From the NCBI GenBank assembly GCA_016220175.1, contig JACRHZ010000073.1, forward strand, positions 1 through 34,020: a stretch of 34,020 nucleotides of DNA. The letters are read 5' to 3'. Of the stretch, positions 20,782-25,731 are shown piece by piece; within the stretch, counting starts at the first letter, position 1, and every line of letters starts with the position of its first letter. Source of the DNA: Candidatus Peregrinibacteria bacterium (GTDB lineage: Bacteria; Patescibacteriota; Gracilibacteria; CAIRYL01). The notes below the pieces were generated by a model. It ran no database searches. It was not told the DNA's origin and saw only the letters and a list, made by a program, of their open reading frames with translations. Made by a program: the position numbers and the translations under genes.

Positions 20782-20880
20782 AATGTAAAAGATAAAATGT
20801 AAAATGTTAAAAAAAATTCTAAGTTCTAAAATTTAATGCTTAAAAATTAAGACTTATTTTTACATTTTGCCTTTTACATT
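20782..20880. repeat. Inverted heptanucleotide tracts between the ligase-like gene and alaS
   Basis: The 23-bp arm 20782-20804 (AATGTAA AAGATAA AATGTAA AA) and the arm 20858-20880 are inverted copies matching at 21 of 23 positions. Both have 7-bp periodicity. The right arm overlaps the alaS stop codon and its last two codons. A close copy of the arm is at 26913-26935. Confidence 0.85.
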
Positions 20881-23498
20881 TTACATTCTTCTTCCACTCT
20901 CTTCCTGATCTCCTGAAACTGTTCCAAGTTCACTCCCGCTCCCTGCGCAAAATTTTGAGCTCCACCGCCGCTTCCTCCCGCAAATTCCGTAATTTTTTGA
21001 AGAATGTCTTTCGCGGAAATTTTTCCTTTTGAAGCCACGGAAATCCCACCGTCTCTCGTAAATGTCACGGCGACATCAATTCCACGCTGAACGAGTTCTC
21101 GAGCCAGCGCTCCAATTTTTTTCTTGTCTCCTGTCGGAATTGGTTCACAAACAACTTTCTTGCCATTCACATCTTTTTGAAGAGGAATAAGCTCATCTGT
21201 CTCCAATCTCACAATTTCTTTATTGATCGCAATATGTTCATTTTCTAAATCTTTCCTTTCCTGAAGAAAAATCTTTACTCTTTCTTCGAGTTGTTCAACG
21301 GGGGTTTTTAAACTTGCAGCAATCGATTCTGTCATATCGGATAATTTCCAGAGAAATCTTTGAGCCTCCTTTGCACACACAAGCTCCATTCTCCGAATTC
21401 CACTCGCGACACTTGATTCCGAAATAATTTTTATCGCACCAATATCAGCAGTGTTTCGCACATGAGTTCCTCCGCACAGTTCAAAACTTTTGTCTCCCAT
21501 TCGAATTGTGCGAACAATATTTTCATATTTTTCTGAAAAAAGAGCCTCGGCTCCTGCTTTTTTCGCTTCTTCGAGCGGCATTTCTTTGGTAGCAACTTCA
21601 TTTGCGGAATTCACCCAATCGCAAATTATTTGTTCGATTTCACGAATTTCTTCTTTCGTGACTGCTTTTGGATGGGAAAAATCGAAGCGCGTTCGAGTAG
21701 ATTCCACGAGTGAACCTTGTTGTTCCACATGTTTTCCGAGTACTTGTTTGAGAGCGGCATGAAGAAGATGCGCAAGCGAATGATGACGACGAATTTGTTC
21801 TCTTCTTTCCACATCAATTTTTAGAAAAACTTTATTTTCTTTCTCGAGAGGCGATTCCCCAGATATAATTTTACCAATATGCACAAAAACTCCATTCGGC
21901 ATTTTCTGAACATCCTGAACTTCAATTTTAATTCCAGAATCAGATTCTACTAATCCGGTATCTGCGACTTGTCCTCCTGATTCGGCATAAAACGGAGTTT
22001 CATCGAGCGCGAATTCTACGATTCCTTCGCCCACTTCTTGAATTGCGAGAATTTTTGATTTCCCTTCATTTTTTTCATATCCAATAAATTTTGTTTTCGG
22101 AAGATTTTCAAATATTTTCCGATCAGCATTCTTTCGATCAAAAAATTCTCCTTTTCCTTCTCGAGATCTTTTCTTTTGCTGTTCCATTTCTTGATCAAAC
22201 TTCCTTTCATCCACGGAAATCCCTTTTTCCCTTGCGATATCTCGAGTAATGTCGAGAGGAAATCCATAGGTATCAAACAGTTTAAACGCGTCTTCTCCTG
22301 AAATTACTTTTGGATTTTTCTCCAGAATTTCTTCGAGAATTTTTTCTCCCCGTTCAAGTGTTTCAAAAAACTTTTCTTCTTCAATTTTTATCGTGGTGAA
22401 AATCGTTTCCTTTCGTTCTTCAATTTCTGGATAAAATTCTTTGAAATCTTGAATGTATGCGTCAGAAATTTTCGTGAGAAATGGCGTATTAATGCCCAGA
22501 GTTCGACCATACCGAACTGCCCGACGAATCAGCCTTCGGAGTACGTAACCTCGACCTTCATTGGAAGGAATCGCACCATCAGCGATGATATGCGTTGCGG
22601 CACGGGAATGATCGGCAATAATCCGCATCGCGCGAGTAATCGGATTTTTTACATCAATATCTCCAGAATATGGCGGATATTTCTTTTTGGAGATTTTTTC
22701 TGTTGCGGTAATAACTGCCGAAAATGAGTCAGTTTCAAATATTGTTGGATTTCCATTGAGCACCATCACAATTCTCTCAAGTCCCATTCCTGTATCGACA
22801 TTTTGTGCTGCGAGTTTCGTTAATTTTCCGTCTGCATCTTGATTGAATTCCATGAGCACGTCATTCCAGACTTCGATAAAATCGGTTTCGTCCGTCGCGG
22901 GAGTTTGTTCTTTTTTTGGTTTTTCTTTGCCAATATACACGTACATTTCGGTACATGGACCACATGGACCTCCTCCGCTTCCCGCAGGTCCCCAAAAATT
23001 ATCGCCTCGTCCTTTTTTCCCTCCCGGTTTTGGACCAATTGGAATAATCCGTTCTTCAGGAATTCCGAGTTTTTTCCAAATTTCTATACTTTCGGTATCG
23101 AGCGGAATATCTTTGTCTCCACCAAAAACAGTTACCCAAATTTTTTCAGCAGGAATTTTGAGTTCTTTCGTAAGAAATTCAAAACTCATTTGAATCGCGC
23201 CTTTTTTGAAATAATCGCCAAGAGACCAATTTCCGAGCATTTCGAAATACGTGAGATGTCGATTATCTCCAACTTCATCAATGTCATTCGTCCGAACACA
23301 TTTTTGCGCGCTACAAAGCCTTTTTCCCTTGGGATGCGGTTTTCCCATAAGATTCGGCACAAACTGCTGCATTCCGGCAGTCGTAAACAAAACGGTATGA
23401 TCGTTCTCAGGAAGAAGCGAATCACTCGCAACAAGTGCGTGATTTTTGGAAATAAAGTAATCGAGATATTTCTTGCGAATTTCTTTGGAAGTAACCAT
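20874..23498 (-). CDS. alaS: Alanyl-tRNA synthetase
   Basis: This 874-residue class II synthetase charges tRNA(Ala). The N-terminal catalytic core includes FTTAGMQQFVPNLMG and ERIVMVLNG. The editing domain has HHSLAH (about 568-573) and CGGTHV (about 675-680), supplying the zinc/editing ligands. The C-terminal DHHA1-like domain contains GGSGGGAQNFAQGAG. Length is full. The C-terminus (ECKM) and TAA are encoded by a heptamer repeat. Upstream lie a UUCG-type mini-hairpin and a palindromic element. Start ATG at 23496-23498, preceded by CTCCTC rather than a Shine-Dalgarno. AlaX at 843 adds trans-editing. Confidence 0.97.
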   Translation of the reverse strand: MVTSKEIRKKYLDYFISKNHALVASDSLLPENDHTVLFTTAGMQQFVPNLMGKPHPKGKRLCSAQKCVRTNDIDEVGDNRHLTYFEMLGNWSLGDYFKKGAIQMSFEFLTKELKIPAEKIWVTVFGGDKDIPLDTESIEIWKKLGIPEERIIPIGPKPGGKKGRGDNFWGPAGSGGGPCGPCTEMYVYIGKEKPKKEQTPATDETDFIEVWNDVLMEFNQDADGKLTKLAAQNVDTGMGLERIVMVLNGNPTIFETDSFSAVITATEKISKKKYPPYSGDIDVKNPITRAMRIIADHSRAATHIIADGAIPSNEGRGYVLRRLIRRAVRYGRTLGINTPFLTKISDAYIQDFKEFYPEIEERKETIFTTIKIEEEKFFETLERGEKILEEILEKNPKVISGEDAFKLFDTYGFPLDITRDIAREKGISVDERKFDQEMEQQKKRSREGKGEFFDRKNADRKIFENLPKTKFIGYEKNEGKSKILAIQEVGEGIVEFALDETPFYAESGGQVADTGLVESDSGIKIEVQDVQKMPNGVFVHIGKIISGESPLEKENKVFLKIDVERREQIRRHHSLAHLLHAALKQVLGKHVEQQGSLVESTRTRFDFSHPKAVTKEEIREIEQIICDWVNSANEVATKEMPLEEAKKAGAEALFSEKYENIVRTIRMGDKSFELCGGTHVRNTADIGAIKIISESSVASGIRRMELVCAKEAQRFLWKLSDMTESIAASLKTPVEQLEERVKIFLQERKDLENEHIAINKEIVRLETDELIPLQKDVNGKKVVCEPIPTGDKKKIGALARELVQRGIDVAVTFTRDGGISVASKGKISAKDILQKITEFAGGSGGGAQNFAQGAGVNLEQFQEIRKRVEEECKM

Positions 23499-23545
23499 CT
23501 TTTGAGGAGCGAAAAGACGGAGAGATTGTAGCGTATTCTCCTTCG

Positions 23546-23572
23546 GAGAGACAAGACAATGCCTTGTCTCTC
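23546..23572. repeat. Palindromic element, intergenic copy
   Basis: Arms GAGAGACAAG and CTTGTCTCTC flank a 7-base centre (ACAATGC) identical to the centre of the copy inside trpC at 25108-25136. It lies 48 bp upstream of alaS, next to a small CTCC-ttcg-GGAG hairpin. It differs from the trpCF copies in its outermost bases. Confidence 0.85.
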
Positions 23573-23608
23573 ATGGAACATCATCCAGAATATCCCAGTT
23601 CTCTCATC

Positions 23609-24202
23609 TCATCCTAAAAAAATCCGTATTCCCACAATGAAAAGAAGTCCGCTGAAAATATAATTTTGCGCCGTGAGAAATCTGCCTTTAAAAATTATCT
23701 TTTCAAAAAACTTTCCTCCTGCCACCCAAATAAAATGGCTTGTTACTGTGAGAGTGAGAAGTCCGAGAGAAAGTATGAGCGCTTGAAACCATCGAGAAGA
23801 ATGTGTGTCTAGGAGCTGGGAATACATGAGAAGTGTCACAATAACGCCTTTTCCATTGAGAACACTCAGAAGGAATCCTTCACGAAATCCGAATGAACAT
23901 TTCTGTTTTTCCTTTTGAATTTCTGTTGATAAAAATGTAAGAGCTAAATAAAAAATATAGAACACTCCCATATATTTTAAAACGATAAGCGCCATAGGAT
24001 AGAGCTCAAATAAAGCGCCAACTCCAAATCCTATCGCTAGACTTCGAGTAAAAATTGCTAAATTCAGCCCGACAATAAATGGAAATATTTTTCGTATTCC
24101 ATATTTACTTCCCACCGATGCGCACATGATGTTGTTTGGACCCGCAGACCAAACAAGGGGGAGCATCATTGCCAAAAAAATTGAGATTTGTTCGAGAGAC
24201 AT
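23609..24202 (-). CDS. LysE/RhtB-family amino-acid exporter
   Basis: This 197-residue inner-membrane protein has six predicted helices. The N-terminal LPLVWSAGPNNIMCASVGSKYGIRKIFPFIVGLNL region matches the LysE family signature (S/TPGPNxxxxxxxxxxxGxxxGxxxxxG). Members export amino acids or their analogues; substrate cannot be told from sequence. It begins 26 bp after trpCF on the same strand and may be its operon partner, which would suit a tryptophan-related or general amino-acid overflow role (inference). Confidence 0.85.
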   Translation of the reverse strand: MSLEQISIFLAMMLPLVWSAGPNNIMCASVGSKYGIRKIFPFIVGLNLAIFTRSLAIGFGVGALFELYPMALIVLKYMGVFYIFYLALTFLSTEIQKEKQKCSFGFREGFLLSVLNGKGVIVTLLMYSQLLDTHSSRWFQALILSLGLLTLTVTSHFIWVAGGKFFEKIIFKGRFLTAQNYIFSGLLFIVGIRIFLG

Positions 24203-24228: not shown

Positions 24229-25731
24229 TTAGTTTATGAAAATTGTAAAAAGATTTTTGAGAAGCTCCTCATCCTTTCTCCCCACACTCTTCTCCACTCC
24301 CGAATTCACATCAATTCCATTCGGAAAACAGGATTTTATAATTTCTTGAACATTCTCTGGGGTAATTCCTCCAGCAACAAAGAATTTCTGACCTTCTGCG
24401 AGATATTTTGGAATTTTTTTTAATAATTCAAGCGAAATTTGTTTTCCTGTTCCGCCGCGAGATTTTTCGGAATATGCATCTAATAAAACCGCATCACAAA
24501 AAGAATATTCAGAAATTTTCTGTAAATCTGATTCATTTATGATGCGCAATGCCTTCCAAATTTTTGGTTTGTTTCGTAGAGACGCGCTATAGCGCGTCTC
24601 TACTACGAATTCACGGCAAAATTCCGGTGTTTCGTCGCCATGCAATTGAATTACATCCAGAAAATTATATTCATGTAGAGACGCGATTAATCGCGTCTCT
24701 ACGTTTAATGGATTTACAAAAACACCAACAAATTTTGGTTTTTTCATCGCGTGTTCGCGGATATTTTCGACAATTTTTCGTGCATCTTCCAATAAAATCC
24801 TCCGTGGCGATTCCTCCGCAAAAACAAACCCGAGATAATCAGCATCTTTTCCTGCCAAAATTGCATCTTCTAAATTTGTAATTCCACATATTTTCACTTC
24901 CGGTTTTCCAGAAAGATCATAAAGCGTCTTTTTTCGATCGTCTGAAGCAATAATTGCGGTACCAATCAAAATCGCATCGGCATTTTTTGCGTATTTACGA
25001 ATATCATTACGAGAAGAGATTCCACTTTCGCAGACGAAAATTTTCTCTTTTCGCATATTTTCTGGAACTTTTGAAAAAAGGTCATGAAAATTATTTAGAT
25101 TTAATTCGTAGAGACAAGACAATGCCTTGTCTCTACTATCAACATTACAATCTCGATTCACCTGTAAATTTCGATTATTCACTCCAACAATTCTCGCATC
25201 GGTATTCTTCAAAACATCGAATAATTCCTCTTCATCATGAACTTCTACAAGCGCATCCATTCCTAATTCTTGAAGAATCGATAAAAACTTTTGAATTGTT
25301 TTTGCATCAAGAACACTTCGCATGAGAAGCACGGCATCAGCCCCATATTCAGCTGCTTCGTAAATTTGTATTTCATCCAAAATAAAATCCTTTCTGAGAA
25401 TCGGAAGATTTGTAATTTCTCGAACTTTTCGAATATTCTCAATTGATCCGCCAAAAAAATTTTCATCGGTGAGAACTGAAATTGCCATAGCTCCAGAATC
25501 AGAATACAATTTCGCAAGACTTTCCACGCTATCATCCGAGCGAAAAAGCTGACCTTTTGATGGCGATTTTGGCTTTATTTCCGCAATCAGTTTTGGATAT
25601 ATCGATTCTTGAGAAAGCGCTTTGTAAAAAGCAAAATTTCTCTTTTTAAAATTCTGAGGCATCACAAAATTTTTCTTTAGTTCAAGAATTTCTTTTTTCT
25701 TGTTCTCAATGATTTCTTCTAAAATGTTCAC
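24229..25731 (-). CDS. trpCF: Fused indole-3-glycerol-phosphate synthase / phosphoribosylanthranilate isomerase with in-frame palindromic insertions
   Basis: This 500-residue bifunctional tryptophan enzyme has TrpC at about 1-270 and TrpF at about 277-500. TrpC blocks: LIAEIKPKSPSKG (48-60), LRKDFILDE (112-120), VEVHDEEEL (162-170), VGVNNRNL (182-189), CESGIS (234-239), LIGTAI (255-260). TrpF blocks: VKICGITNLEDA (279-290), FVGVFVN (334-340), QLHGDE (362-367), SRGGTGK (424-430), AGGITPEN (453-460), GIDVNSGVE (472-480). Catalytic regions look intact. Three palindromic elements (24576-24603, 24675-24702, 25108-25136) are translated in frame as parts of loops or helices at about 199-208, 344-353 and 377-386. 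The start is GTG at 25729-25731. No other trp gene is in the window. Confidence 0.93.
   Translation of the reverse strand: MNILEEIIENKKKEILELKKNFVMPQNFKKRNFAFYKALSQESIYPKLIAEIKPKSPSKGQLFRSDDSVESLAKLYSDSGAMAISVLTDENFFGGSIENIRKVREITNLPILRKDFILDEIQIYEAAEYGADAVLLMRSVLDAKTIQKFLSILQELGMDALVEVHDEEELFDVLKNTDARIVGVNNRNLQVNRDCNVDSRDKALSCLYELNLNNFHDLFSKVPENMRKEKIFVCESGISSRNDIRKYAKNADAILIGTAIIASDDRKKTLYDLSGKPEVKICGITNLEDAILAGKDADYLGFVFAEESPRRILLEDARKIVENIREHAMKKPKFVGVFVNPLNVETRLIASLHEYNFLDVIQLHGDETPEFCREFVVETRYSASLRNKPKIWKALRIINESDLQKISEYSFCDAVLLDAYSEKSRGGTGKQISLELLKKIPKYLAEGQKFFVAGGITPENVQEIIKSCFPNGIDVNSGVEKSVGRKDEELLKNLFTIFIN
24576..24603. repeat. Palindromic element 1, inside trpF
   Basis: A perfect 28-bp palindrome with half-site GTAGAGACGCGCTA. 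On the coding strand it is read as V-E-T-R-Y-S-A-S-L-R (377-386). Flanks show TTCGTA and TACGAA around it. Confidence 0.95.
24675..24702. repeat. Palindromic element 2, inside trpF
   Basis: A perfect 28-bp palindrome with half-site GTAGAGACGCGATT. It is read in the same frame as element 1, as V-E-T-R-L-I-A-S-L-H (344-353). Confidence 0.95.
25108..25136. repeat. Palindromic element 3, inside trpC
   Basis: A 29-bp near-palindrome with 11-bp arms GTAGAGACAAG and CTTGTCTCTAC and a 7-base centre. It is read in a different frame from elements 1 and 2, as S-R-D-K-A-L-S-C-L-Y (199-208). Confidence 0.93.

Follow-up and report, generated by a model that had tools for sequence, protein, structure and literature searches.

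The window, the whole stretch of 34,020 nucleotides analyzed here, corresponds to contig C73 in a genome of 1.49 Mb (G000). Its minus strand contains a 500-codon gene (24229-25731) for a fusion of indole-3-glycerol-phosphate synthase and phosphoribosylanthranilate isomerase (TrpC-TrpF), whose frame stays open throughout with three palindromic elements inside it. Element 1 (24576-24603, minus strand; GTAGAGACGCGCTATAGCGCGTCTCTAC) is a perfectly self-complementary stretch of 28 nt without a loop, which codes in frame for residues V377-R386 of TrpCF and is read as VETRYSASL plus one base of the R codon. Element 2 (24675-24702, minus strand; GTAGAGACGCGATTAATCGCGTCTCTAC), a 28-nt palindrome with the core ATTAAT, lies 71 bp from element 1 and codes for V344-H353 in the TrpF helix region that follows the GVFVN motif. 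Element 3 (25108-25136, minus strand) is a 29-nt palindrome of the GTAGAGACAAGG..CCTTGTCTCTAC family, a separate 29-nt sub-family, and is likewise in frame, coding for S199-Y208 in the TrpC half. A decayed fourth copy (GGAGAGACAAGACAATGCCTTGTCTCTCA; 23545-23573, unstranded) is found between the ORFs at 20874-23498 and 23609-24202.

The palindrome of element 1, from which the original prediction had started, proved to be real. Its arm pattern has two matches in the window as against none in 100 dinucleotide shuffles, and 10 copies with at most two mismatches are present in the genome, as against none for the reversed control. A chance origin was ruled out by these two controls. With its GTAG...CTAC ends and its length class of 28/29 nt, the element has the form of the short (20-40 bp) palindromes with a GTAG end that typify one group of REPs.

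Loop lengths in the TrpF and TrpC halves

The spacing from the C of QLHGDETPEFC to the WKA of the following strand is 19 residues in the host protein, as had been stated originally. The accompanying estimate of about 9 residues for a typical TrpF agrees with the wider relatives, which have 7-11, and roughly with two genomes of the same family (G001 and G004), which have 12. It fails for four others of that family (G002, G003, G005 and G006), in which the spacing is 16-20 residues, all of them lacking the palindrome; a search of these four long loops for decayed palindromes found none. Close relatives that lack the element and yet have the same extra residues had been named beforehand as evidence against the ten-codon claim, and these four genomes supply such evidence in part. 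Removal of 30 nt at element 1 leaves 9 residues, within the range of 7-12 seen in most relatives, relative to which the net gain is +7 to +12 residues. Hence element 1 explains most of the extra length of the TrpF loop relative to most relatives, whereas the proposal of an expansion by exactly ten codons is not proven. A nucleotide-level empty site, for which an inspection of the flanks in relatives had been suggested, was not found among the genomes compared, the nearest of which belongs to another genus.

These lengths also bear on a different account, in which a TrpF loop that was already long in this family was later partly overwritten by the palindrome, or lost neighboring residues at the insertion, so that the palindrome would not explain ten extra codons. 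The four long-looped genomes are what it would lead one to expect; however, the 12 residues of G001 and G004 and the still shorter spacings of the wider relatives are not, and the residues left after removal of 30 nt match the short form. We regard this account as possible but rather doubtful.

The other two elements in the gene differ from element 1 in this respect. At element 2, the corresponding segment has 18 residues as against 15 in nearly all relatives, a net gain of only 3, and this element has replaced sequence rather than added to it. Element 3 is associated with a net gain of 16 residues at a site whose length is near-constant across about 40 relatives. It is this element, rather than element 1 as formerly held, that is the cleanest insertion in the gene. 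In another genome (G018, locus L008) the TrpF half of trpCF is enlarged by two long segments, unrelated in sequence and devoid of a palindrome.

An AlphaFold2 model of the TrpF domain, built with 16 sequences, attained a mean pLDDT of 87.9 with element 1 included. The block encoded by element 1 (mean pLDDT about 82) forms the end of a helix and a loop ahead of the IWKA strand, and the region of element 2 is modeled with lower certainty (pLDDT 65-72). The TrpF barrel is thus predicted to form with element 1 in place, a prediction that says nothing on activity; the TrpCF enzyme presumably works despite the elements.

Copies in other genes, their frames and flanks

Pattern searches detected at least 32 dispersed copies of GTAGAGAC-type GTAG...CTAC palindromes in the genome, falling into several sub-families with compensated arms. 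At least 13 of these are in-frame intragenic copies, distributed over nine genes identified by means of Pfam and NCBIfam: three in trpCF, two close together in pheT, two in priA, and one each in ileS, radA, rsmF, queE, a pfkB-like ORF and a gene for a REP-associated tyrosine transposase (RAYT). Given the identical copies elsewhere, the second element 71 bp away, the third in the TrpC half and the occurrences in eight other genes, the view that element 1 is an inserted multi-copy element lengthening TrpF is well supported. This is the part of the ten-codon claim that stands.

The GTAG end reads as a TAG stop in one of the three frames of each strand, which leaves two frames open, and the 13 intragenic copies are confined to those two (eight in frame 0 and five in frame 1, whereas frame 2, the one with the TAG, has no copy). 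Comparison with relatives indicated net gains of 14 residues in pheT for its two copies together and of 5 to 10 in ileS; as these relatives are only about 30-60% identical, the loop lengths for genes other than trpCF are uncertain by a few residues. Little or no net gain is seen for the first copy in priA (0), radA (+3 to +4) and rsmF (about +3 to +5), which, together with element 2, favors a replacement of pre-existing residues as in the long-loop account of TrpF. Element 3 and trmD, in which the net gains are clear, speak against it. In trmD, the allele of G063 has the element and that of its sister species G114 lacks it, the two being 85% identical and differing in length by 54 nt. In a same-genus pair with and without the element in pyrC the difference is 18 nt, and in pgm the corresponding site of the sister species is occupied by a decayed copy. 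Over all copies the net change thus ranges from 0 to +18 residues and is not uniformly +10, so that insertion is not a simple event of fixed length.

Further variation at such sites was encountered in mnmA, where two sister species (L173 in G115 and L184 in G070) have different GTAG palindromes a few codons apart, which suggests, as far as the sequences go, a tolerant site that was inserted into repeatedly. In addition to its palindrome, the ileS gene of G000 (L109:263-4165) contains an inserted histidine-phosphatase domain (PF00300; residues 556-722).

The same distribution bears on whether the hairpins are retained for regulating the trpCF mRNA, through its stability, pausing or attenuation, rather than being mobile passengers. 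Three strong hairpins within one biosynthetic gene might be taken as a sign of such a role, and a function at the RNA level has been proposed for REPs in general (PMC3733652). Yet the same palindromes occur between genes and in the unrelated ileS, pheT, priA, radA, rsmF and queE genes, and the homologous positions in relatives are devoid of them, making such a regulatory role improbable.

The sequences TTCGTA and TACGAA flanking element 1 had been put forward as a possible short target duplication. They are reverse complements of each other, i.e. inverted rather than direct repeats, and hence are not a target-site duplication; moreover, in the left copy GTA already forms part of the palindrome. 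Among 92 distinct copies with flanks we noted direct repeats of at least 2 nt in 12 (5.5 expected), of at least 3 nt in 7 (2.4 expected) and of at least 4 nt in one (1.06 expected), so that no target-site duplication of fixed length, of the kind left by classical transposons or MITEs, was found across these copies. The absence of a fixed duplication is expected of single-strand transposition like that of IS200/IS605 elements, with which these 92 copies therefore fit. The first two bases outside the copies are purine-rich (77% and 70%).

Palindromes within RAYT genes

There are nine genes with the Y1_Tnp domain in G000. A motif-based census of 39 RAYT ORFs, mostly gathered by protein match (L037, L156 and L167 were gathered by the palindrome), revealed a strong in-frame palindrome between the HUH motif and the region of the catalytic tyrosine in 27. 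A further three of the 39 have a strong palindrome elsewhere, and one (L159) looks spurious. Within G000 the loop palindromes are in frame in the RAYTs of contigs C55 and C11, where they are strong, and C15, where it is imperfect; the loops of those on C72, C49 and C75, inspected by eye in translation, have longer, broken repeat-like stretches. In-frame loop palindromes are also present in RAYT genes from other genomes of the same class, as well as at loci L220-L282. A longer coding stretch of rsmF (L111:2939-4540), VGTTLVVARNKRAGARPAPT, resembles the loop segment VGTTFAVAQ...RAGARPAPT of the RAYT on C75 (L108), and the two could possibly represent another RAYT-linked family.

As regards the sub-family of the window itself, an intact RAYT in G076 has the identical palindrome, GTAGAGACGCGATTAATCGCGTCTCTAC, in its loop. 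The same palindrome occurs at the same loop position in the 3' half of a broken RAYT gene of G000 (L071; G000:C4:18153-18343). Thus a cognate RAYT for these GTAG-type repeats exists in intact form in G076 and in broken form on C4 of G000, and for the exact sub-family of element 1 our search of G000 found only the broken one and no intact RAYT. In BLAST searches against 40 RAYTs the best match of the broken gene was the G076 protein (53% identity over 73 residues, E = 5e-25); this pairing is confined to the local comparison, as the nearest neighbor in a global alignment is L270 and not G076. Over 24-25 RAYTs, the similarity of the proteins is correlated with that of their palindromes (Mantel r = 0.27, a value attained by 12 of 5000 permutations). 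A second copy of the palindrome within 500 bp of the RAYT was found in only 4 of 24 GTAG-type cases, flanking REPs being mostly absent. What was observed is a genetic association, and it suggests that the RAYT mobilizes the palindrome.

Relation to known repeats and proposed origin

In 2013 Di Nocera et al. described GTAG-ended REPs that have RAYT partners and also occur within ORFs, among them those of housekeeping genes, with most such cases in Opitutus terrae (PMC3733652). The repeats analyzed here resemble these in being dispersed palindromes of 20-40 bp with a GTAG end, in forming several sub-families per genome and in occurring alongside RAYT genes, and element 1 joins the known intragenic GTAG-type REPs. 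However, they differ in having GTAG on both strands, in being perfect palindromes with no loop or a loop of one base, and in numbering only tens of copies, whereas in the REP literature copies usually exceed 100 per genome (PMC3733652, PMC2817692). They differ further in that the matching palindrome lies within the RAYT coding sequence. Nunvar et al. (2010, PMC2817692) characterized RAYT genes as having a REP on either side, and in both papers the RAYTs are REP-flanked or overlapped by REPs at their ends (PMC3733652, PMC2817692). A cognate palindrome held in frame within the RAYT gene does not figure in the passages of these papers that were consulted and seems to be the new feature, though it may already have been reported elsewhere.

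Translation in frame within many unrelated genes is a property shared with the Rickettsia palindromic elements (RPE) and those of Wolbachia, and raises the question of whether element 1 is itself an RPE, given that RPEs likewise enter many housekeeping genes (PMC3733652). According to the same source, CGTC is the end of RPE-4 and RPE-6, and repeats of this CGTC type reportedly have no dedicated transposase (PMC3733652). The copies studied here, by contrast, have GTAG/CTAC rather than CGTC ends, with GTAG on both strands, and RAYT partners, of which none is reported for the RPE and Wolbachia elements; RPE-1 units are moreover longer. We consider an RPE identity extremely unlikely. RAYTs have a transposase domain of the Y1 HUH type (Pfam Y1_Tnp) in common with the IS200/IS605 elements, and the absence of any target duplication of fixed length is in keeping with this; a search for an autonomous IS unit with the palindrome of the element as its ends found none.

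Taken together, we are fairly confident that element 1 is a GTAG-tagged, REP-type, non-autonomous mobile palindrome that was most likely moved by a RAYT, landed in frame in trpCF and is now translated. In the most likely course of events the palindrome would have moved as single-stranded hairpin DNA, the RAYT cutting and pasting it, with flanking bases probably often lost or gained upon insertion. A copy would then have landed in trpCF with the reading frame preserved, the survivors within genes being those in the two TAG-free frames whose net change is a multiple of three. The translated result would be an extension of roughly ten residues at the edge of the TrpF loop. We are evenly divided on a broader proposal, that in this bacterial class a RAYT and its palindromic substrate constitute one unit, in which the matching palindrome held in frame in the transposase loop would seed read-through copies in host genes, the element then acting as a mobile word that is translated and not as an extragenic repeat.

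A mobile palindrome of a mere 28 letters has thus entered housekeeping coding sequences repeatedly within a single small genome, where it is apparently tolerated as protein, and related bacteria seem to hold this repeat within the transposase genes that are presumed to disperse it. If RAYT genes do carry their own substrate in frame, each of them names its own substrate palindrome, and the seeding of REPs and their retention near the transposase become testable.

A literature search with the palindrome sequence as a string returned no related work, and a plasmid search with the loop of the G076 RAYT gave no match. An identical 28-mer of the window's own sub-family is present on two cyanobacterial plasmids, being intergenic in the annotated one, so the palindrome is not restricted to this bacterial class. 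The small genomes, together with in-frame TGA in some of the relatives, point tentatively to a Patescibacteria-like class. Eleven IMG/VR contigs (L283-L293) contain exact GTAGAGACGCGATTAATCGCGTCTCTAC, two of them in three copies each.
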